From contig NZ_JAUDRJ010000003.1 of NCBI RefSeq assembly GCF_030382115.1, positions 2,477,713 through 2,503,298 on the forward strand: a stretch of 25,586 nt of DNA. Direction: 5' to 3'. The notes under the pieces are model-generated. The model was not told the DNA's origin. It searched no databases and worked only from the letters and a program-made list of their open reading frames with translations. Position 1 is the stretch's first letter, and every line of letters begins with the position of its first letter. This stretch comes from Nostoc sp. GT001 (GTDB lineage Bacteria > Cyanobacteriota > Cyanobacteriia > Cyanobacteriales > Nostocaceae). Of the stretch, positions 10,233 to 20,691 are shown in pieces. The translations under genes and the position numbers were made by a program.

Positions 10233-10910
10233 ATGAAACCAATTTTAGGTTTAGCGATCAGTTCTATATTCATTTCTGCACCAGCTTTTGCACAGGGACA
10301 ATTACAACCATTATCTGGTATTAAGATTTTAGTTAACCCAGGACACGGAGGGCAAGAAACTGGCGCGGCTGGAGCAACAGGATATTTTGCTAAAGATGTT
10401 AGCCTCACAGTATCTAAGTTGCTGCGTGATGAACTGGTCTTAAGAGGTGCGTTAGTAGTGATGACGCGAGAAGATGACAGAGAAGTAGCTTTGTCCGAGC
10501 GCCAAGCTATGATCGATCAACAACAACCAGCGATCGCTCTAACCATACATTACACAGCAGTACCCGACGACGGAGATGCAGAGAATACCAAGGGCATTAG
10601 AACTTTTTGGTATCATTCTCAAGCCCATAGCCTAGCCGTTTTTCTTCACCATTATCTAGTTAACCAGTTAGGACGTTCATCAATGGGGGTGTTTTGGAAT
10701 AACTTGGCGCTAACTCGTCCCTCTACAGCACCATCGGTGGTAATGGAACTGGGTTTTATGACTAACCCCGAAGAATTTGAATGGATAGCTAATACCGATG
10801 AACAAAAAAAATTAGCACGAGTTTTGGCAATTGGTGTTGTTGAGTGGTTTCAGGGTGCAATCACTCCCAATACTGTTAAGAGACGCGATAAATCACCGTC
10901 TCTACATTGA
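10233..10910 (+). CDS. Exported N-acetylmuramoyl-L-alanine amidase (Amidase_3)
   Basis: This zinc-dependent cell-wall hydrolase cleaves the bond between N-acetylmuramic acid and the first peptide residue. Residues 1-20 are a signal peptide ending AFA/Q. The Amidase_3 domain starts at ILVNPGHGG, whose His is the first zinc ligand. The Glu of GGQETGAAG is the second, the His of ALTIHYTA the third, and the catalytic Glu is in VVMELGFMTN near the end. At 225 residues it is a minimal, single-domain enzyme with no AMIN or peptidoglycan-binding domain. The last 12 residues (TVKRRDKSPSLH) are encoded by a dispersed hairpin repeat (AGAGACG/CGTCTCT, 10879-10903), so the native end has probably been replaced. 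It stands alone on the plus strand. Confidence 0.92.
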   Translation: MKPILGLAISSIFISAPAFAQGQLQPLSGIKILVNPGHGGQETGAAGATGYFAKDVSLTVSKLLRDELVLRGALVVMTREDDREVALSERQAMIDQQQPAIALTIHYTAVPDDGDAENTKGIRTFWYHSQAHSLAVFLHHYLVNQLGRSSMGVFWNNLALTRPSTAPSVVMELGFMTNPEEFEWIANTDEQKKLARVLAIGVVEWFQGAITPNTVKRRDKSPSLH

Positions 10911-11175
10911 AGAAGAATTCAGAAGTCAGAATGGGCTAAACGCCCCGCTACCGCTAACAGGAGTCAGAATCAAGACGCGACTCGAAAATACTGGCTATCT
11001 GCTTTTTCGTTCAAAATTCATTCTGAATTCTGGCTCACCTCGACTCCTTTCGACTTCTCTACGAGACGCTACGCGAACGCTCAAGGCAAGTCGCTCGGCG
11101 ACCACCTGACTCCTGAATTCTGTTTTGATAAATGTTTGGCAAAAACCGAATGACAAAATACCATTTTTTGGTTCA
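10911..11175. repeat. Composite dispersed repeats between the amidase gene and coaT
   Basis: The spacer is nearly all repeat. AGAATTCAGAAGTCAGAAT near 10914 returns inverted as ATTCTGAATTCTGGCT near 11020, and again as CTCCTGAATTCTG near 11110. In between are GGGCTAAACGCCCC and CTTCTCTACGAGACGCTACG (11054-11073). The last resembles the insert in coaT. No separate terminator for coaT or the amidase gene was identified. Confidence 0.6.
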
Positions 11176-13161
11176 TTATTTCAGCAATCTTAGTCCACTG
11201 AGGGTAACTAATACTGTGGAACCTTCATGACCAATGACGCCGATGGGTAGGTTAATATTTCCTAGAAAGTTGCCGACTAAAAGCAACATAATGAAACTCA
11301 ACGCTACAACTATATTTTGTTTTACGATGGCTTGCGATCGCCTGCCCAAATGCATCGCTACAGCAATTTTTTCTAACCTGTCTGCCATCAGTACGATATC
11401 TGCGGTTTCTAATGCCACATCGCTACCAGATACTCCCATTGCTATACCCACGGATGCTTGCGCTAAAGCTGGTGCATCATTAATGCCATCGCCTACCATT
11501 GCAACTGTTTGATATTGTTGCTGTAAACGGCGGATAACATTCAGCTTATCTTCTGGTAGAAGTTGGGCATATACCCGATCGATTCCGACTGCTTTGGCTA
11601 CACTGCGAGCAGTTTCCTGATTATCCCCGGTTAGCATGACAATTTGTTCAACTCCCAGTTTCTTTAATCGGCTGATGGTTGCGGCTGCTTGCGTTCTTAC
11701 TTGATCTGCGATCGCAATTACACCCATCACCTCTGCTCCTCTGCCCCCCTGCTCCTCGTTCACTGAGCGTAGCCGTTGGCGCAGCCTCTCGTAGAGAAGT
11801 GCTGCTCCCCTGCTTTCCTGTGCTACCCAAACCACAGTTTTACCTTCTTGCTCCCAAGATTGAACGATTTCTCGCAATTCTTCAGGTAAATTTGTTACAT
11901 ACTGCTGCACAAAAATGGCATTCCCGACAATTATTTGTTGTTCTTGAGCAATTCCGACAATTCCCTGTCCCGGTATAGCTTGCACTTGGATTGCACCAAC
12001 CCAATCTAAATCGCTAGCCGCTTGTACAATTGCCTTACCGATGGGATGTTCGGAAGATGCTTCGACACTAGCAGCTGTTTTTAATACATCATCATTAGTG
12101 TATTCATTAGCTGAAACTACCTGAAATACCTGCACCTGTCCTGTTGTAAGAGTACCAGTTTTATCAAATGCGATCGCTCGGACTTGGCCAATCTTCTCCA
12201 ACTGCGCCCCATTTTTAAACAAAATCCCCTGTCTTGCACCATTGGCGATTCCTGAAAGCAGGGTGGGCATAATTGCAGCCATCAGCGCACAGGGAGAAGC
12301 CACTACCAGGAAAGTAAGAGCGCGATAAATTGTTGTTTCCCAATCCCAACCCCAAAGAAATGGCGGTAAAGTTGCCAGCAATATCCCAGCTACTACAATG
12401 ACTTTGGCATATCCTTTTTCAAAGCGATCGATAAACTCTTGGGAAGGTGGTGCTTCTGTCTGCGCTTGTTCTACCAAACGAATCACACGCTGGATTAAAC
12501 TACTTTGGGCTGGTTTGTGTACCTTAATCTGCAATGCACCATAGCCGTTGAGTGTACCAGCAAATACTTCTGCGCCCACTGTTTTCTCTACAGGTAAAGA
12601 CTCACCCGTAATTGCAGCTTGATTGAGGGTGCTGTAACCAGATAAAATTATCCCATCAGTAGGAATTAGCTCTCCAGGTTTGACGACAATCTCATCACCC
12701 ACTTTTAGCTGACTGATCGGAATTTCCTCTTCCCTCCCCTGAAGCAAAACCCTTGCTGTATCTGGTGTCAAACTCATCAAACTGCGGATACTCCGCTCAG
12801 TTCTCTGCATTGCATAGCCTTCGAGTGCGCCACTGATGGCAAAGATCAGAATCAAAATTGCCCCATCAATAATTAGATGATATTCTCTTCGCCATAAGCC
12901 GAGGCTAGCAGCACCAATGGCGGCGACAATCATCAACAAATCTACATCGAGTTCTTTTTCTTTGAAGAGGGTAGTCAATCCTTCTCGCGCACTTTCGTAA
13001 CCACCAATTACATAAGCAGCGGGTAGTAGCAGGAACGCCAATCCCAACCAACCGAGATGCAAGGCGAACCATCCGAAAAGTAACAATAAGCCACACAAAA
13101 GGGCGGCTACGGTATCTGCGTGTTCTCTGGTGACTTGGCCTAAACGTTGGGGGTAGAGCAT
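11176..13161 (-). CDS. coaT: P1B-4-type cobalt-exporting ATPase
   Basis: This inner-membrane heavy-metal pump belongs to the P1B-4 subgroup, shown by SPC in the metal-site helix (Ser289-Cys291) and HEGST near the end (His645-Thr649). Both are typical of CoaT/CtpD cobalt exporters. Core motifs are TGES (185-188), DKTGT with phosphorylated Asp333, HP (SSEHPIGKAI), TGDN (511-514) and GDGIND (557-562). There is no N-terminal metal-binding domain, as expected for CoaT. Residues about 451-477 are an in-frame extra peptide encoded by a dispersed repeat (see 11731-11811). The pairing with coaR on the other side of a MerR-type promoter supports cobalt over zinc, but specificity is inferred. Three HIP1 sites lie in the gene. 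Confidence 0.9.
   Translation of the reverse strand: MLYPQRLGQVTREHADTVAALLCGLLLLFGWFALHLGWLGLAFLLLPAAYVIGGYESAREGLTTLFKEKELDVDLLMIVAAIGAASLGLWRREYHLIIDGAILILIFAISGALEGYAMQRTERSIRSLMSLTPDTARVLLQGREEEIPISQLKVGDEIVVKPGELIPTDGIILSGYSTLNQAAITGESLPVEKTVGAEVFAGTLNGYGALQIKVHKPAQSSLIQRVIRLVEQAQTEAPPSQEFIDRFEKGYAKVIVVAGILLATLPPFLWGWDWETTIYRALTFLVVASPCALMAAIMPTLLSGIANGARQGILFKNGAQLEKIGQVRAIAFDKTGTLTTGQVQVFQVVSANEYTNDDVLKTAASVEASSEHPIGKAIVQAASDLDWVGAIQVQAIPGQGIVGIAQEQQIIVGNAIFVQQYVTNLPEELREIVQSWEQEGKTVVWVAQESRGAALLYERLRQRLRSVNEEQGGRGAEVMGVIAIADQVRTQAAATISRLKKLGVEQIVMLTGDNQETARSVAKAVGIDRVYAQLLPEDKLNVIRRLQQQYQTVAMVGDGINDAPALAQASVGIAMGVSGSDVALETADIVLMADRLEKIAVAMHLGRRSQAIVKQNIVVALSFIMLLLVGNFLGNINLPIGVIGHEGSTVLVTLSGLRLLK
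11731..11811 (-). repeat. Repeat-derived in-frame insert inside coaT
   Basis: About 81 bp encode 27 residues (RGAALLYERLRQRLR, then SVNEEQGGRGAE) between VVWVAQES and VMGVIAIADQVR. Related ATPases normally pass directly from one to the other. The DNA contains CTTCTCTACGAGA (minus strand, 11799-11787), identical to 11054-11066 in the nearby spacer. It also has a GGAGCAG/GGGGGGCAGAGG stretch like the STRR arrays. The length is a multiple of three, so the frame survives. Confidence 0.75.
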
Positions 13162-13188
13162 GAGAGGTGAATTTATAGTGACTCTCTC

Positions 13189-13222
13189 AGGCTAAACCTT
13201 GACATTGATGTTAATGTCAAGG
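13189..13222 (-). promoter_or_regulatory. CoaR/MerR-type operator-promoter of coaT
   Basis: Bases 13197-13222 form a perfect inverted repeat: CCTTGACATT, 6-bp spacer, AATGTCAAGG. On the minus strand TTGACA (13220-13215) is the -35 and TAGCCT (13194-13189) the likely -10. They are 20 bp apart, the over-long spacing of MerR-activated promoters. The coaT ATG is 28 bp further on. Because the palindrome also gives TTGACA on the plus strand (13199-13204) with TATGGG 19 bp later, it may fire both ways. Confidence 0.75.
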
Positions 13223-13284
13223 ATATGGGAGTTAAAAATGAAAAGTAAAATCCTTTTACACTCCTGCATTAAGAGGAAAAATCT

Positions 13285-14403
13285 ATGCTAAAGCGAATTT
13301 ATATTGATAACTTTCGTGGGTTGGTAAATTTTGAGATAAATTTTGACTCGATTAATCTGTTTCTTGGTGCTAATGGTTCAGGAAAATCAACTGTTTTTGA
13401 GTCATTAAGAAAAATTCAAGCCTTTTTAACTATTCATTGTGACGCAGGAGAAGTTTTTAAATCTTCTGACTGCACACGCTGGCAGACTTTAGAAATTCAG
13501 CGTTTTGAGTTAGAAATTTCTGGCAATGGTGGCGATTATAAATATGAACTTGCCATTGAACATCATATGAAACATAATTGCCATGTTAAATATGAGCGCC
13601 TGTATTTCAATAATAATCTTTTATTAAATATTGAGAATGGTAAGGGTCAGCTTGCTAGAGATGATAATTCATATATGTCTGATTTTCCATTCCCTACCTC
13701 TCATTCTGCAATATTATTACTAATAGAAAGTGGCAATACCAAACTGAAATGGTTCCAAATGCGGATGGAACGATTAATCATTGTACAAATTATTCCTAGC
13801 TTCATGACCAATGGGAGTAAAAAAGAAGAGTTGCAACTGAATTGGAAAATGGAAAATTTTGCTTCTTGGTATCGGTATATCACTCAAGAAGAAGCTAAAA
13901 CAGCAGAGTTAATTAATGTGCTAAAAACATTGTTACCTGGCTTTTTAGGCTTTAGATGGGAATATTTAACCGAAGAGTATGTAACTCTAAAATTGCAGTT
14001 TGCAGATGAGGAAGATAAGACAAAAATTATTGATTATCGTTTAAGTGAATTATCTGATGGACAAAAAGCGCTTTTTGCTCTTTATACTTTCCTGTATTGT
14101 ACTCAATCTGAAGACTATACATTATGTATAGATGAGCCAGAAAATTTTTTAGCCCTGCCAGAAATTCAGCCCTGGCTAATTAAACTATATGATTTTTGCA
14201 GTGAAGAAAAATTACAAGCTTTGCTGATTTCCCATCATCCAGAACTAATTAATTATCTTTTAGCATCACCTATAGGTTATTGGTTTGAGCGTCAAATCAA
14301 TAAACCTGTGAAGGTGAAAAAGATTAGTAATGAGTTGGCTGACAATACTGGATTACCCGTTTCAGAATTGATTGCGCGGGGATGGCTATATGAGCCAGCG
14401 TAG
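13285..14403 (+). CDS. AAA/ABC-type ATPase of the OLD-like (AAA_15/AAA_21) group
   Basis: The 372-residue ATPase has an N-terminal LKRIYIDNFRGLVNFEINF strand pair, typical of OLD/RecF-like ATPases. Walker A is GANGSGKST (28-36), the signature is LSELSDGQKALFAL, Walker B is YTLCIDEPENFL, and the His switch is LLISHHPEL. It has no nuclease domain of its own. The next gene, overlapping by 14 bp, encodes a TOPRIM-like protein, so the two resemble split OLD/PARIS-like defence pairs. Starting the ATG at 13285 is supported by AAGAGGA 8 nt upstream. The gene is more AT-rich than its neighbours and I see no HIP1 site in it, pointing to acquisition. A defence role is inference. The substrate is unknown. 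Confidence 0.85.
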   Translation: MLKRIYIDNFRGLVNFEINFDSINLFLGANGSGKSTVFESLRKIQAFLTIHCDAGEVFKSSDCTRWQTLEIQRFELEISGNGGDYKYELAIEHHMKHNCHVKYERLYFNNNLLLNIENGKGQLARDDNSYMSDFPFPTSHSAILLLIESGNTKLKWFQMRMERLIIVQIIPSFMTNGSKKEELQLNWKMENFASWYRYITQEEAKTAELINVLKTLLPGFLGFRWEYLTEEYVTLKLQFADEEDKTKIIDYRLSELSDGQKALFALYTFLYCTQSEDYTLCIDEPENFLALPEIQPWLIKLYDFCSEEKLQALLISHHPELINYLLASPIGYWFERQINKPVKVKKISNELADNTGLPVSELIARGWLYEPA

Positions 14404-14941
14404 AATACAGATTCTTGTCTTGTGTGAGGATAGGCAACAAGAGGTTTTTGCTCGTCATTTTCTAAAAATACGAGGCTTTAATGGAACAATCAGATTTTTA
14501 CCTTGCCCAGATGGAAGCCAATCCGCAGAACAGTATGTGCGATTGTGTTATCCAAAAGAAGTGAAAGCATACCGCAGCAAGGCAAGCTACTTATCTATTG
14601 GGCTGGTTGTAGTGATTGATGCAGATAAAAAAACGGTAGAGGAAAGGTTGAAGCAATTAGATGATGCACTGAAAGAAGATTCACAGCAGATTCGCCAGCC
14701 TGATGAAGCCATAGCAATATTCGTGCCAAAAAGAAATATTGAAACTTGGATACATTATTTACGGGGACAGGCTGTTGATGAAGAAACAGAATATCCAAAA
14801 TTTCCTAGAAATGAGTCAGCCTGCAAACCATCTGTAGAAAACTTGGTAAATCAGTGTTACCAAGGTTTAGATGAAAATGCGCCACTATCTCTTCAGGCGG
14901 CTTGTGAAGAGTTACAAAGAATTTTGCCGTTGTTGGGGTAA
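14390..14941 (+). CDS. TOPRIM-like (DUF4276/RloB-type) partner of the ATPase
   Basis: This 183-residue protein begins IQILVLCEDRQQEVFARHFL, where the first acidic cluster of a TOPRIM fold is expected. It continues to GLVVVIDADKKTVEERLKQL, with the DxD motif. Near the C-terminus, PKRNIETWIHYLRGQAVDEE resembles DUF4276-type proteins. TOPRIM partners of OLD-like ATPases are nucleases in known defence systems, and by analogy this would be the effector. I chose the ATG at 14390, overlapping the ATPase stop by 14 bp; a TTG at 14372 is possible. Its stop is followed after only 3 bp by the coaR start, so it is cotranscribed with coaR. The exact family is uncertain. Confidence 0.72.
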   Translation: MSQRRIQILVLCEDRQQEVFARHFLKIRGFNGTIRFLPCPDGSQSAEQYVRLCYPKEVKAYRSKASYLSIGLVVVIDADKKTVEERLKQLDDALKEDSQQIRQPDEAIAIFVPKRNIETWIHYLRGQAVDEETEYPKFPRNESACKPSVENLVNQCYQGLDENAPLSLQAACEELQRILPLLG

Positions 14942-14944
14942 ATC

Positions 14945-16051
14945 ATGAATGCTGGTTGCTTAACTATTAAAGAACTTACTGATGCAGTAGGAGGCGGTTT
15001 GACTCCGCGGATGGTGCGCCATTACCATCAATTGGGACTGCTACCGCAACCAGTGCGATCGCGCAGCAATTACCGTCTCTACACCCAAAAAGATGTTCTC
15101 CGGTTACAACGGATTGTCGCACTCAAGCAGCAAGGGTTTCAGCTAAATCATATCCGCAATATTTTGGAGGTGGAACCAGAAGCCGATACAACTGTTAACT
15201 TGATGGGACAACTCCAGCAGCAATATCGCGCGGTGATGCAACAAATCTCCCAACTGCGGCAAACTGCATCAGCATTAGAAGGATTATTGGGACGCGATCG
15301 CCATTGTCAAATTATCCAGGCGGAAGTTTTGGCGCAACTCAAGTTACTTGATGTTGAAACTCAAGCCGGATTGGGAGGATTGGAAAATCTCTGGAGTGGC
15401 TTGGATGCCGAAATTCATACCCACTCGGAAGCTTTTACCGAATCGCTACAACGCTTACTTCCTGATTTGTCTCACCGTTCGGAAATTGAACAGCATTTAA
15501 TTTCTCAGTTGGTTTTGGCTTGTGGCGATGTCAGTTTAGTGTCCTTTATTAAATTGAGTCGAGATGCGATCGCAGCTAGTCGAGAAGCTTTATCTTCAAG
15601 TTGTCAAATTGTTGTCGATACTCAAACGGTTGCTGCTGCTTTAGATCAAACCCGATTACTTCACTTAGGATGCCGCACCGAAACCTTAATTGATAACCCT
15701 CATATTACTACTGCCACTGAAGCAGAACTCGCCTTTTGGCAACATCAAGAATGGCGAACAAAATTGCTGCAAGTAAGTAATGGATGTGTGCTGGTAGTTG
15801 GTTATGCTCCCTCAGTACTTCTGGAAGCTTGTAAAGCCATTGCTAACCAAAAAATTCAGCCTGCATTAGTAATTGGAATGCCCATTGGCTTTAGCCACGC
15901 TCCCGCAGCCAAGCGACAACTGATGCAACAAGGGATACCTTATATTACAGTTGAAGGGACTTTAGGAGGTGGCGCATTAGCTGCAACGGCCCTAAATGCT
16001 TTGGTTGAGTCCCTGATAGATAAGCCAGATTGTCATTGTTATCTCAAATAA
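14945..16051 (+). CDS. coaR: Cobalt-sensing MerR-family activator with a precorrin-isomerase-like domain
   Basis: In Synechocystis 6803, CoaR activates coaT in response to cobalt. Residues 1-75 are the MerR winged helix (LTPRMVRHYHQLGLLPQPVR, then SNYRLYTQKDVLRL). About 80-115 is the dimer coiled coil. About 150-360 matches precorrin-8X methylmutase CobH/CbiC (VVGYAPSVLLEA, VIGMPIGFSHAPAAK, VEGTLGGGALAATALNAL). The last residues hold Cys363-His364-Cys365, the metal-binding tail known from CoaR. Where CobH has its catalytic His (HACG), this protein has Leu191 (LACG), so it should bind but not isomerise. CoaR usually lies next to coaT and divergent from it; here the two are 1.78 kb apart. Three HIP1 sites are present. 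Confidence 0.92.
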   Translation: MNAGCLTIKELTDAVGGGLTPRMVRHYHQLGLLPQPVRSRSNYRLYTQKDVLRLQRIVALKQQGFQLNHIRNILEVEPEADTTVNLMGQLQQQYRAVMQQISQLRQTASALEGLLGRDRHCQIIQAEVLAQLKLLDVETQAGLGGLENLWSGLDAEIHTHSEAFTESLQRLLPDLSHRSEIEQHLISQLVLACGDVSLVSFIKLSRDAIAASREALSSSCQIVVDTQTVAAALDQTRLLHLGCRTETLIDNPHITTATEAELAFWQHQEWRTKLLQVSNGCVLVVGYAPSVLLEACKAIANQKIQPALVIGMPIGFSHAPAAKRQLMQQGIPYITVEGTLGGGALAATALNALVESLIDKPDCHCYLK

Positions 16052-16127
16052 GTATTCATTTAAGACAGCCTGTCCTGGCTAATTCTATGAGACTGTTGGC
16101 GAATAAGTGAGGGGTCTTAGTAATCAG

Positions 16128-16251
16128 TAGACTTCTTGCATAAGTCGGGAAAAGGGTAAGGGGGAAGGGGAAAAGGTTCTGTATTGTCCCCTTCCCCTTT
16201 AACCTTTACCCTTTTCCCCCTCTTGCAAAAAGCACTTTTGCAAGAGGTCTA
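16128..16251. repeat. MITE-like hairpin element (about 124 bp)
   Basis: The ends TAGACTTCTTGCATAAGT (16128 on) and ACTTTTGCAAGAGGTCTA (16234-16251) are inverted repeats with two mismatches. Inside, GGGAAAAGGGTAA pairs with TTACCCTTTTCCC, and GGGGAAGGGG-type tracts pair across the centre. The right end also contains its own hairpin (CTCTTGCAAAA/TTTTGCAAGAG). No ORF. It fills most of the 218-bp gap between coaR and the kinase gene, which meet tail to tail. Confidence 0.7.
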
Positions 16252-16269
16252 GTGAGCAGAATAGTAGAG

Positions 16270-19200
16270 TTAAAATACTGGAATCTCAATGACAAATTCT
16301 GTTCCTTCACCAAGTACAGAATTGCAACTCAAGCTTCCATTATGGGTTTCCTCAACAATTTGACGAGCGATCGCTAATCCTAATCCTGTTCCTTTGCCAA
16401 CCTCTTTGGTTGTAAATAGGTGGTCAAAGATCCGCAATCTAATTTCCTCTGGCATCCCCTGGCCGTTATCTTTCATCCGAATTATTACCGTTTGTTCGTT
16501 ACTGGATACTTCGGTTTGAATCAGTATTTGCTGACGATCGCCTTGCACTTGGGCAAAAGAACGCCCCTCAATGGATGCATCGAAGACATCAATTGCATTT
16601 GCAAGGATGTTCATAAATACTTGATTTAGCTGTCCTAAAAAGCACTTGACAGGCGGTAAATTTCCGTATTTAGTGATGACTTCAATCGCTGGACGTTTTT
16701 CGTTAGCTTTGAGGCGATATTTCAAAATTAACAGGGTACTCTCAATTCCTTCATGGAGGTTACAAGCAACTTTTTCGGCTGTATCGGCTCTGGAGAAGGT
16801 GCGGAGACTGATACTAATATCTTTAATCCGTTCTGAAGCCACCTTCATCGAACTTACTAGCTTTGGTAAATCTTCAATTAGAAATTCGAGGTCAATTTTT
16901 TCGCCATGCTCAATGACTGCGATCGCCGGAGTGGGATGATGTTGTTTAAACAATTGGATATGGGCGAGTAAGTCTTGAGTATACTCTTCAGCATTGTGGA
17001 GGCTACCTTCCAGAAATCCAATGGGATTATTAATTTCATGTGCCACACCTGCAACCAAATTGCCCAATGTTGCCATTTTTTCGTTTTGCACCATTTGTAG
17101 TTGGGCTTGCTCAAGTTCTTGCAGCGATCGCTCTAGTTGATGAGCATAATTCTGGTATTCTTGATAAAGGCGGGCATTTTCTAGAGAGATGGCAGCTTGA
17201 GCGCATAGCAGTTGGATAACTTCGGTGCGATCGCGAGTAAATGCACCAATTGTTAGCGGATTTTCTAGATATAGCAGCCCGATAATTTTTCCCTGATTTA
17301 ATATTGGCGTACACAACACACTCTTAGGTTGTTGCTGCATGAAATATGAATCAGCGATAAAATCAGTTTGTGCTGTTGCATCATCCAGTACAACAGTTTT
17401 TAAACTGTGTTTGACAAAGTTCACCAGTGTAATGGGAATGTCTTCGCTGGTTGACAATGGTACAGATAATAGGGTGACTCCTTCATCAATAGTGGCTATG
17501 GCTTCAACCACTAAATTTTCCTGTTTGAGTACAAGTAATGCAGCTTTTTGTGCCCCAGCATTTTCCATCACTACTTGCAAAAGTGTAGTGAGTAATTGCT
17601 CTAATTGAATTTCACTGGAGAGGGCTTGTGAGGCTTTCAAGATGGTGGACAAATCGAGGGCTTCAGAGATACTGCTGCTAGAGAGGTTTGTGTGGATGGT
17701 TTGATTTGGTAATGATGATGCATCGACAGTTGAACTCAGTTGAAAGTGATTAATTTGCCCTTGTAAGATGGGAGCCAGGAGTTGAGGATAGCGTTTTTCT
17801 AAGTCTTCAGTTTTGGCTTTAGCGCCCCAACGAGCATAACAGTAATAAGCTTCTTGCATATAAACTTGGGCGATTTTTTCTTTGTCCCAGTCGAGGTAAA
17901 ACTTGGCCGCTAGTTCATTACTCAAAGCTTCTTCTTGGATATATGCATTTTCTTTCGCTAGAGTTATGGCGCAATTGTACAATTCCATTGCTTTGTTTTT
18001 GTGCAGCAAAATCCGCTGCCGTTCTGCTTCGACTAAATAAAATTTGTGTTGATGATTAATTGGGGCATGATGCGCCCATTTTTTCAGTTTTTTCTGATGG
18101 GATGTGATTTTTTTAAGAATCTGTTTTTGTTCGTTAGCTGTTGCTGTTGGATAGAGATTTAGTTGGGTTAACGCCTCATAAAAATAAACTATTGGTACAA
18201 CTGCTGCCGATGTTACCCCATCTAAATAAGTTATTGCCTGAATTGCTGCCTCAGATGCTCTGGTATAATTTTCAAATAGGTAGCAAAGTATCAGTTCATT
18301 GGCATAGCTAAAGCTCAATCCAGTGCGATCGCCTGCTTGCTCTTGTAATGAACGAATAGTTTGGGCATCATAAACAGCACCTGATAAATAACTGGGATCG
18401 GTAGATTGTCCTAACAAATTCAATATGGCTTGACGAAATGAATTAATATAAGTCTGGGGTTTTTCTTGTCTAAAATGACTATAGACTTCAGCATAGTCAC
18501 CCATCTGTTTTTCTAACTCAGCTAATTCTTGCCCCATCAAATATCCATGAAAACTACAGCTATAGCTAGCCCAAGCTGCATATTCGATATCTCCGGTTTC
18601 TAAACCCACTTGATAGGCTTCAATTAACGGTGCAATTGTGTCTTTAAGTGGTTGATGCCAGTGATTAATAAATGTTTGAACAATGAAGAAAGTTCTAGCT
18701 TTGAATTCTTTACTATGGAATTTTTCGAGAACTTGTAATGCTAATTGACCAAATTTATAACCTGTCTCAATATTTCCCAGAATGCCACACTCAATCAATC
18801 CATACCAGGCATAGCCAAATGCAGATGCCGCAGCATTACCGTACTGCATCGATAAATTGACTTCGCTCAAGATTATTGGTGGCAGTAAATCTGGACGAGC
18901 AATATAAGCTGTGGAATTTGTACTAGCCAAAATTCGGATTGCTGCTAGTTGTTTGTCCCCAGTCATATTAGGTAAATCAATCAAACTTAAAGGAGATTTA
19001 CCTAAAAATCGTAATTTTGTTTGGGCTAGATTGAGTAATGTTTGTATTTTAGTTGCTTGATGAGATAGTTTCACACCTAAGAGATTTAGCAGTGCGATCG
19101 CAGTCTGAATTGAATCATCAAAACGACTCTGAGCTAAATAAGATTGGATTTGAATTTCTATCGATTTCACCCGATCTATTAAGACTTTAGCATGTTGTTG

Positions 19201-20691
19201 CACTTGCTCAACAAACTCTTCTACTTCGTCAAACTGGCCCATAAGATAGGCTGCCGAAGCAGCTTCTTCATACAATGCTAATGTGAGTGAATACTGTTGT
19301 TGCCAGCTATCTTTTCTCAATAGCTGAATACCGCAACTGATATATTCTATTGCATTCGTATAAGCAGTGGATAGTTTGGCTTTTTGCCCAGCCAGTAAAT
19401 TTAACTCTGCTAATCGATCTCGCTCAGACTGCTGAGTGATTAGCTTTACACCAATATTTAACTGATTAACAATCTCAAAAATTCTCTCTTCCTGCTTTTT
19501 AACTGGTATTTTGCTTAATAGCAGTTGGCCAATTTGCAGATGGATGGATTGCTTTTTTGACTCCGGGATCAACGCATAAGCTGCTTGTTGAATGCGATCG
19601 TGTAAAAATTTATAGTTTACAGTTAGCGCACTTTGTACTAAATCCTGTGTTTCTCGCCCAACATAGAATTTGTAAACTTCGCTTTGGGGCAAGATTAATC
19701 CCTCTTGTAATGCTTTCCAGAGAAATGTTGCTGTTTCGGTTTCAGAATTTTCCGAAACAATTGCCAATGTTGCCAAATCAAATTGATTACCAATACAAGC
19801 TGCTAATTTCAAAACATTCTGCGTTGATTCTGGTAATTTCCGCAACTGTAAAACCATAAAATCAACCACATCATCTGTCAGAGCTAACGCCTTAATCTGG
19901 GCAATATCACACTGCCAGCTTCCGCTATTTACATCAAATTTAATTAGCTGGTCTTGATGCAGTGCTTTGAAAAATTGCGTACTAAAAAATGGATTACCCT
20001 TGGTTTTCTGATATACTAACTGTGTTAAGATTTCTGTAGTTTCTAGCGAACAGTTTAGGGTATCGGCAACCAATTGATTTAAACTGGCTTCACTCAGTGG
20101 TGCTAATGTAATTTTGTTAATAGTAGCATTAGCTTTGGCAATTTCATCTAATGTCAACATCAATGGATGGGCAGCAGAAACTTCATTATCTCGATAAGCT
20201 CCAATTAATAATAAATATCCTGAGTTTGACTCATTCATTAGTAACTGGATCAACTTCATTGATGCTGAATCAGCCCACTGCATATCATCTAAAAATATGA
20301 CTAGGGGATGTTCTTTGGTAGTGAATACTTGAATAAATCTTTGTAATAATAAATTAAACCGATTCTGGGCTGCATTTGGTGAAAGTTCTGTTGCAGATGG
20401 TTGTTGGCCAATAATTTGTTCTAGTTCGGGAATTACCTCAAGAATGACTTGCCCCTGATCGCCCAGCACTTGTAAAATTTTATTTTTCCAAGTTGACAAA
20501 TGAACATCACTTTCACTCAGCAATTGTCCCATTAAGTCTCGAAACGCCTGCACAAAAGCAAAGAAGGGAATATTCCGATTAAATTGGTCAAATTTGCCCT
20601 TAATGAAGTAGCCCCGCTGTCGGACAATGGGTTTGTGAACCTCGTTAACAATTGCTGTTTTACCAATACCAGAAAAACCAGCCACCAGCAT
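16270..20691 (-). CDS. AAA-TPR-GAF-histidine kinase (detached C-terminal part of a giant Ser/Thr-His kinase)
   Basis: This has 1,473 residues, starting in the middle of a domain. It begins [20 protein letters not shown], the Walker A of an AAA_16 module that in relatives follows a Ser/Thr kinase in one polypeptide. Walker B is [12 protein letters not shown] long TPR-like helical region spans about 420-950, GAF about 1010-1160, and a coiled coil follows. The HisKA has acceptor His1218 ([14 protein letters not shown]). The ATPase has N-box ([15 protein letters not shown]), G1 (DNGQGM), F (FDHLFTTK) and G2 (GKGTGLGLA). The ATG at 20691-20689 shares its A with the stop of the upstream kinase gene (TAATG). 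No receiver domain is present. All catalytic motifs are intact. Whether it is translated by re-initiation is inference. Confidence 0.85.

Follow-up and report, generated by a model that had tools for sequence, protein, structure and literature searches.

An ATPase/TOPRIM gene pair is an old, polymorphic resident of the interval between the cobalt genes coaT and coaR in Nostoc cyanobacteria

In the two-gene PARIS system, the ABC ATPase AriA keeps the TOPRIM protein AriB sequestered; anti-restriction proteins act as triggers, and AriB, once released by a phage protein, cuts tRNA (PMC11455837, PMC12409363; these and all other papers are cited from excerpts). PARIS has been proposed as class 4 of the OLD proteins (PMC10568477), and a wide range of conflict operons with ABC ATPases, credited to earlier work, has also been described (PMC12839542). 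CoaR is a cobalt-responsive activator of coaT (PMC4284471, PMC4788461), and in Synechocystis the two genes are divergent (PMC4788461), as the initial annotation of the DNA studied here had stated. Here, we analyse a stretch of 25,586 nucleotides from Nostoc sp. GT001 (the window), in which a gene for an OLD/Rad50-like ABC ATPase (gene A) and a gene for a TOPRIM-like protein (gene B) lie between coaT and coaR.

In the window, a 22-bp dyad separates coaT, on the minus strand, from A, B and coaR, which follow in that order on the plus strand (Table 1). A MerR-CbiC regulator and a P1B ATPase that diverge around a dyad match the CoaR-coaT cobalt system. The initial annotation had placed an ATPase/TOPRIM pair between the coaT operator and coaR; its positions and the overlap of the two genes were borne out, and a recount of the window genes returned the same GC (guanine plus cytosine) and HIP1-octamer values. 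Gene B ends 3 bp before coaR. The further proposal that the pair forms the front of the coaR operon agrees with the layout, which is compatible with one transcript, and with the lack of a second operator in the genome: the dyad has no second copy in the window at up to 3 mismatches (0 of 100 shuffles gave a match), nor elsewhere in the 7.9-Mb genome when up to 2 are allowed. We read A-B as a split ABC-ATPase/TOPRIM conflict module, a long-standing polymorphic resident of the coaT-coaR slot whose two genes head the coaR transcription unit, and assign this reading a probability of about 0.57.

The pair shares its plan with PARIS, in that an OLD-type ABC-ATPase gene comes first and a separate TOPRIM protein second. 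The OLD-family ATPase motifs are complete in A: across 39 sequences, no key residue of Walker A, the ABC signature, Walker B or the H-loop varies. In profile searches A matched the AriA chains 8ux9 and 8v45 at 8.7e-5, with better matches to OLD 6p74 and Rad50, and the PADLOC AriA model PDLC02980 at 5.5e-20. However, A has 372 amino acids and AriA 464. No AriB-named match was found for the window's B in PADLOC at E 0.1, for its 39 relatives at E 0.01 or, as an AriB chain, for B among solved structures at E 1, the presence of AriB entries being unchecked in each case. Thus, the PARIS likeness seen in the initial annotation holds for the plan and is not supported for membership, and we did not assign the pair to that family by name. 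The best sequence match of B to a solved structure (0.13) was not credible, and Foldseek alone gave no match at 0.001; E13 and D77/D79 of B are candidate TOPRIM positions.

The best overall fit was HEC-01, a PADLOC candidate pair (HEC-01A/HEC-01B). A matched HEC-01A at 2.5e-21 across residues 2-360 (model of 371 positions), and one HEC-01B model matched 25 of the 39 B relatives at E ≤0.01 (best 4e-6), although the window's own B reached only 0.001. A literature search found no paper naming HEC-01 together with PADLOC. AbiL is also similar: A matched AbiLi at 1.6e-16, and among the 39 B relatives one matched AbiLii and one RloB. The profile searches proposed in the initial annotation thus linked A to AriA, AbiLi and OLD, whereas the window's B had no AriB-named, AbiLii or RloB match at E 0.01. 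The ATPase and TOPRIM folds also occur in Gabija GajA and the OLD class 1/2 nucleases, there in a single chain, unlike the two reading frames of A-B with their 14-bp overlap. Defence hotspots with conserved flanking genes are a known general kind, and the coaT-coaR slot likewise has conserved flanks and exchangeable contents; it differs in that its flank is a divergent metal-sensor promoter and its cargo sits between operator and regulator. Among the open-access titles and abstract openings listed by literature searches, none linked coaR to a TOPRIM or defence pair. The kind of module is known; the independent swapping of ATPase A and its place within a metal-sensor transcription unit are new.

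In Nostoc cyanobacteria, the DNA between coaT and coaR often serves as an exchangeable slot. Both genes are present in the same 114 of 145 family genomes and diverge within 12 kb of each other in 78 of the 114, at intervals of 64 bp to 10.8 kb; two further genomes have intervals of 13.5 and 15.6 kb, and in the remainder the genes are far apart or on separate contigs. Twenty of the 145 genomes carry A or B, ten of them in the slot, one beside coaT (genome G128) and nine elsewhere. Presence of the pair beside coaR in most relatives had been named beforehand as a point against the initial annotation; both genes occupy the slot in only nine of the 145 genomes, and a B remnant in one. Within the genus, A occurs in 16 of 53 genomes, and in the DNA fetched for them coaR stands beside B in all 16 and coaT is included in 14; stops interrupt A at loci L146, L148 and L149, and coaR is broken at L143. 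Phylum-wide, B was found in 20 of 386 genomes at 1e-4. In G128 (L168), A-B adjoins coaT and coaR lies ~1.9 Mb away. At the 35 loci measurable on both sides of coaR, the gap towards coaT had a median of 1898 bp and exceeded 600 bp in 28, against a median of 502 bp and 11 of 35 on the other side, where the downstream start was extrapolated from a tblastn match.

Other cargo in the slot was grouped by reading-frame length, and one representative per group was searched. An AT-rich membrane-type protein of 514-526 amino acids is encoded in coaR's direction at eight loci (L018, L021, L034, L038, L044, L046, L051, L079), at one of which, L051, it comes after an intact A-B. A three-gene set lies between operator and coaR at L009 (3966-5868), with similar frames at L017, L019 and L028; it encodes a HATPase_c-like protein of 303 amino acids (Pfam HATPase_c, 5e-5), a DUF4325 STAS-like protein of 115 (DUF4325, 2e-16) and a protein of 207. 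The N-terminus of coaR differs at loci with this set. The slot of one Nostoc (L012, 2944-4107) is taken up by an AT-rich orphan of 387 amino acids for which Pfam and PADLOC gave nothing at E 0.01; the single representatives of the 207- and 514-526-residue proteins likewise had no Pfam match. In G018 (L167, 3576-12646) the slot holds A-B together with a DarG-like gene (5.5e-51) and a 1954-residue protein with a DarT-like part (1.7e-9), beside which an 855-residue protein has a TmtA match.

The pair is an old, polymorphic resident of this slot and not a fresh insert. The named coaR loci are the best 80 of 176 relatives, and 53 of the 80 include coaT; the pair or a remnant is found at 26 (27 of 81 with the window), with nine copies intact and five broken (L014, L015, L029, L035, L046). 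Loss of the pair from the slot clearly happens. B's last codons stand directly before coaR in the pair-less strains L003, L007, L024, L031, L033, L053, L054, L060 and L062, and marginally in L005, with scores of 25-128 for these scars, whereas 2200 base-shuffled controls put the 99.9% level at 24; at L013 and L020, A's first codons lead, by eye, into coaR. The B-coaR junction is conserved across strains, and most scars, though not L020, keep the B tail with coaR's candidate ribosome-binding site, which may be why deletions spare that tail. On a quick coaR tree of the 81 loci, the presence of pair or remnant required 14 changes, against 22.7 in shuffles, which indicates repeated loss and/or regain and not a single recent gain. 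On the A tree (45 rows, some duplicates), location in the slot or elsewhere required six changes, at least two of them forced by well-supported branches; A has thus also moved between the slot and other places.

The allele of A in the window has a different closest relative from that of its neighbours. Compared with L142, the window is 98% identical in coaR, 97% in B, 96% in coaT and only 68% in A; compared with L166 (G035), the figures are 85%, 75%, 80% and 83%, respectively. For groups picked after these identities were seen, approximately unbiased (AU) tests rejected the joining of the window with L142 for A (p 6e-5) and with L166 for B (1.2e-4) and coaR (1.8e-4). The horizontal origin put forward in the initial annotation therefore survives for the A allele, whose nearest counterpart belongs to a distant relative while B, coaR and coaT match a near one; as a recent gain of the module it is not supported. 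Among 13 non-duplicate genus loci (78 pairs), identities correlated for coaR-coaT (0.70) and in part for A-B (0.42), but not for A-coaR (-0.08) or B-coaR (-0.04); at 85% identity, these loci comprise six A classes and four B classes.

Variation is also uneven along the genes. Median pair identity in A is 96% over residues 1-45 and 87-89% over 251-372, and falls to 69% (46-110), 56% (111-190) and 72% (191-250) in the variable part. Median synonymous divergence (dS), from 120 pairs that include three duplicate genomes, was 0.29-0.34 in residues 1-90 of A and 0.5-0.9 in its remainder; in B it was about 0.6-0.9 for the most part, 0.26 in residues 116-138 and 0.22 at the tail; in coaR and coaT it was 0.35. 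The low values at the start of A and the tail of B are as expected from crossovers often falling near these ends. The ratio of median nonsynonymous divergence (dN) to median dS was 0.23 for A, 0.26 for B, 0.09 for coaR and 0.11 for coaT, which indicates purifying selection, on average, on both A and B.

A match of at least 17 of the 22 operator positions lies near coaT in 54 of 54 loci (the window plus those 53 named loci whose fetched stretch includes coaT), at a distance of 35-40 bp except in L080 (71 bp). On the coaT side, a TA-N3-T hexamer stands at a spacer of 20 in all 54, but at least four of six TATAAT positions match in only 4, and a spacer of 18 scores equally well (8 of 54). On the coaR side, a hexamer with at least five of six TATAAT positions lies exactly 20 bp from TTGACA in 25 of 54 loci, and at 19 bp in 4, 21 bp in 1, 23 bp in 3 and 15-18 bp in none. 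Long spacers are usual in MerR-controlled promoters, and with -10-like hexamers at long spacers on both sides, one dyad could serve both directions. The bases 3′ of the window's operator look, by eye, like those of L040/L042 and not like those of its near relatives, which fits an exchanged segment. Near coaR in cargo-bearing loci, no second operator was seen at one mismatch or fewer; chance-like sites with two mismatches occur, as in L048. At L032, with no coaT found in the fetched 6 kb upstream, a perfect operator stands 85 bp before coaR.

A consensus-match promoter scan of 13100-15000 on both strands, with 19-20-bp spacers outside its range, returned 9 promoter-like sites against a shuffle mean of 5.9 (sd 2.5). 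A separate coaR promoter inside B had also been named in advance as a point against the initial annotation, and is not supported: none of the four plus-strand sites falls inside B, and the nearest, at 14339-14368 in the end of A, matches at 9 of 12 positions. Cobalt control of A-B-coaR is, on these sequence features, plausible.

Transcription would most likely start at the promoter overlapping the single CoaR operator, and coaR, the third cistron, would use the candidate ribosome-binding site at the end of B; from this arrangement we infer a single transcript, translational coupling and control of A-B-coaR by CoaR. By family resemblance, A would dimerise via its ABC sites and keep B inactive, the variable region of A (residues 46-250) would meet an invader signal, and B, once freed or switched, would cut nucleic acid (tRNA, by analogy with AriB), whereupon growth would stop. 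Alleles of A and B would move from one strain to another with coaT and coaR left in place; homologous recombination is the probable route, and the first ~45 codons of A, the B tail and the flanking coaT and coaR are the conserved ends in which it would act. The slot can also lose its contents through deletion or take up different cargo. If so, a metal sensor shares its transcription unit with an immune-type switch and effects could run both ways, with immunity tuned by cobalt status and metal sensing affected where the immune genes decay. The slot would also be a natural experiment in the diversification of ATPase/TOPRIM pairs, with the likely sensor swapped and the likely effector kept. A bolder version, which we consider speculative and on the whole unlikely, makes coaT-operator-coaR a docking slot in which Nostocaceae swap immune-type cassettes by homologous recombination in the conserved metal genes, CoaR sets the expression of an abortive-infection switch by cobalt/tetrapyrrole status, and sensor A is reshuffled while effector B stays fixed.

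Table 1. Features of the coaT-coaR region in window coordinates; conservation refers to 39 sequences
Feature	Position	Strand	Remark
coaT, P1B-type metal-exporting ATPase, 661 aa	11176..13161	-	profile TIGR01525 2.3e-173
Candidate coaT -10, TAGCCT	13189..13194	-	20 bp from TTGACA (13215-13220, - strand)
CoaR-type operator, 22-bp dyad TTGACATTGATGTTAATGTCAA	13199..13220	no strand	predicted; CoaR binding presumed
Candidate rightward promoter of A-B-coaR, TTGACA-19 bp-TATGGG	13199..13229	+	weak in window
Gene A, OLD/Rad50-like ABC ATPase, 372 aa	13285..14403	+	
Walker A GANGSGKST, residues 28-36	13366..13392	+	G28, N30, G33, K34 invariant
Hypervariable part of A, residues 46-250	13420..14034	+	candidate trigger-sensing region; putative role
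ABC signature LSDGQ, residues 256-260	14050..14064	+	L256, S257, G259 invariant
Walker B LCIDEPE, residues 280-286	14122..14142	+	D283, E284, P285 invariant
H-loop SHH, residues 316-318	14230..14238	+	S316, H317, H318 invariant
A/B overlap, 14 bp	14390..14403	+	
Gene B, TOPRIM-like, 183 aa	14390..14941	+	
B E13, candidate TOPRIM glutamate	14426..14428	+	invariant
B D77-A-D79, candidate TOPRIM DxD	14618..14626	+	D77 invariant, D79 ≥90%
B N116-I-E118-T-W120	14735..14749	+	N116, E118, W120 invariant
Candidate coaR Shine-Dalgarno, GGGG (GGAG in many relatives)	14935..14938	+	3′ end of B; putative role
coaR, MerR-CbiC fusion, 368 aa	14945..16051	+	

The initial annotation took the pair for a horizontally acquired module, as A and B have low GC and no HIP1 octamer in the window; on this view it would be a recent acquisition of this lineage, wedged into an ancestral coaT-operator-coaR arrangement. 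Short coaT-coaR gaps of 64-298 bp are indeed common (23 of 114 family genomes), yet at least two of them (G134, G038) carry a B scar. Base composition does not single out the slot: A has 30-40% GC across 43 distinct sequences, taken from the slot and from other places, and is nearly free of HIP1 in them (1 in 48.0 kb), against 5 in 22.0 kb of B, 54 in 23.0 kb of coaR and 50 in 38.6 kb of coaT. Recent transfer read from composition was rejected, as A is AT-rich and HIP1-poor in both settings. Together with the conserved B-coaR junction and the 14 changes on the coaR tree, the scars, which place the pair at coaR before its loss from other strains, largely refute a recent gain and make it improbable. 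Among the repeats listed for 13150-15060, none was convincing as a terminal inverted repeat or as a target duplication. A more serious contender, possible though we do not favour it, is that a defence-type module is a passenger in a tolerant gap, with A-B and coaR each under its own promoter and no role for cobalt. The module does occur elsewhere without metal genes (of the 16 out-of-slot loci fetched, all 16 lack coaT and coaR), the same gap also takes other cargo, the window's rightward -10 is weak, and the 9-of-12 site at the end of A could serve B-coaR. A further point weighs against joint control by CoaR: among the 27 named loci whose fetched DNA, in several cases cut short, shows no coaT, a good operator lies near coaR only in L032, so that coaR apart from coaT mostly lacks one. 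Against independent promoters stand the position of the sole operator before A, the 3-bp gap between B and coaR, the shared tail kept in most scars and the lack of a plus-strand promoter-like site in B by the consensus scan.

Two further explanations would give the pair a role outside immunity. It might act in cobalt or B12 physiology, for instance as an ATP-driven partner of CoaR, as its constant coaR neighbourhood in the genus and its place beside coaT even where coaR is elsewhere (G128) could suggest. However, most genomes with coaR lack the pair, and hypervariability and allele swapping are unexpected for a housekeeping partner; we regard such a role as very improbable. Alternatively, A-B could be a non-immune OLD-type pair that serves cell physiology like the archaeal Cran1, since OLD-family ATPases acting in the cell cycle have been described (PMC12796447). 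Patchy presence, broken copies and allele exchange argue against this, and leave it improbable, if less so than a cobalt or B12 role.

Outside the slot, the A-B loci L170 and L171 (G067, G054) lie beside look-alike genes of 716-741 and 460-475 amino acids, which hints at a second preferred site. In 10900-16300, all Rfam families stayed below their gathering scores. A sensor kinase downstream of coaR was rejected as a member of the system: its DNA gives 8 to 15 matches per genome in 53 of 53 genus genomes, and 32 of 37 loci have another, common downstream region. The window's own coaR-downstream region, 16270-20691, encodes this long kinase and differs from the region common to those 32 of 37 loci (L003-L038).

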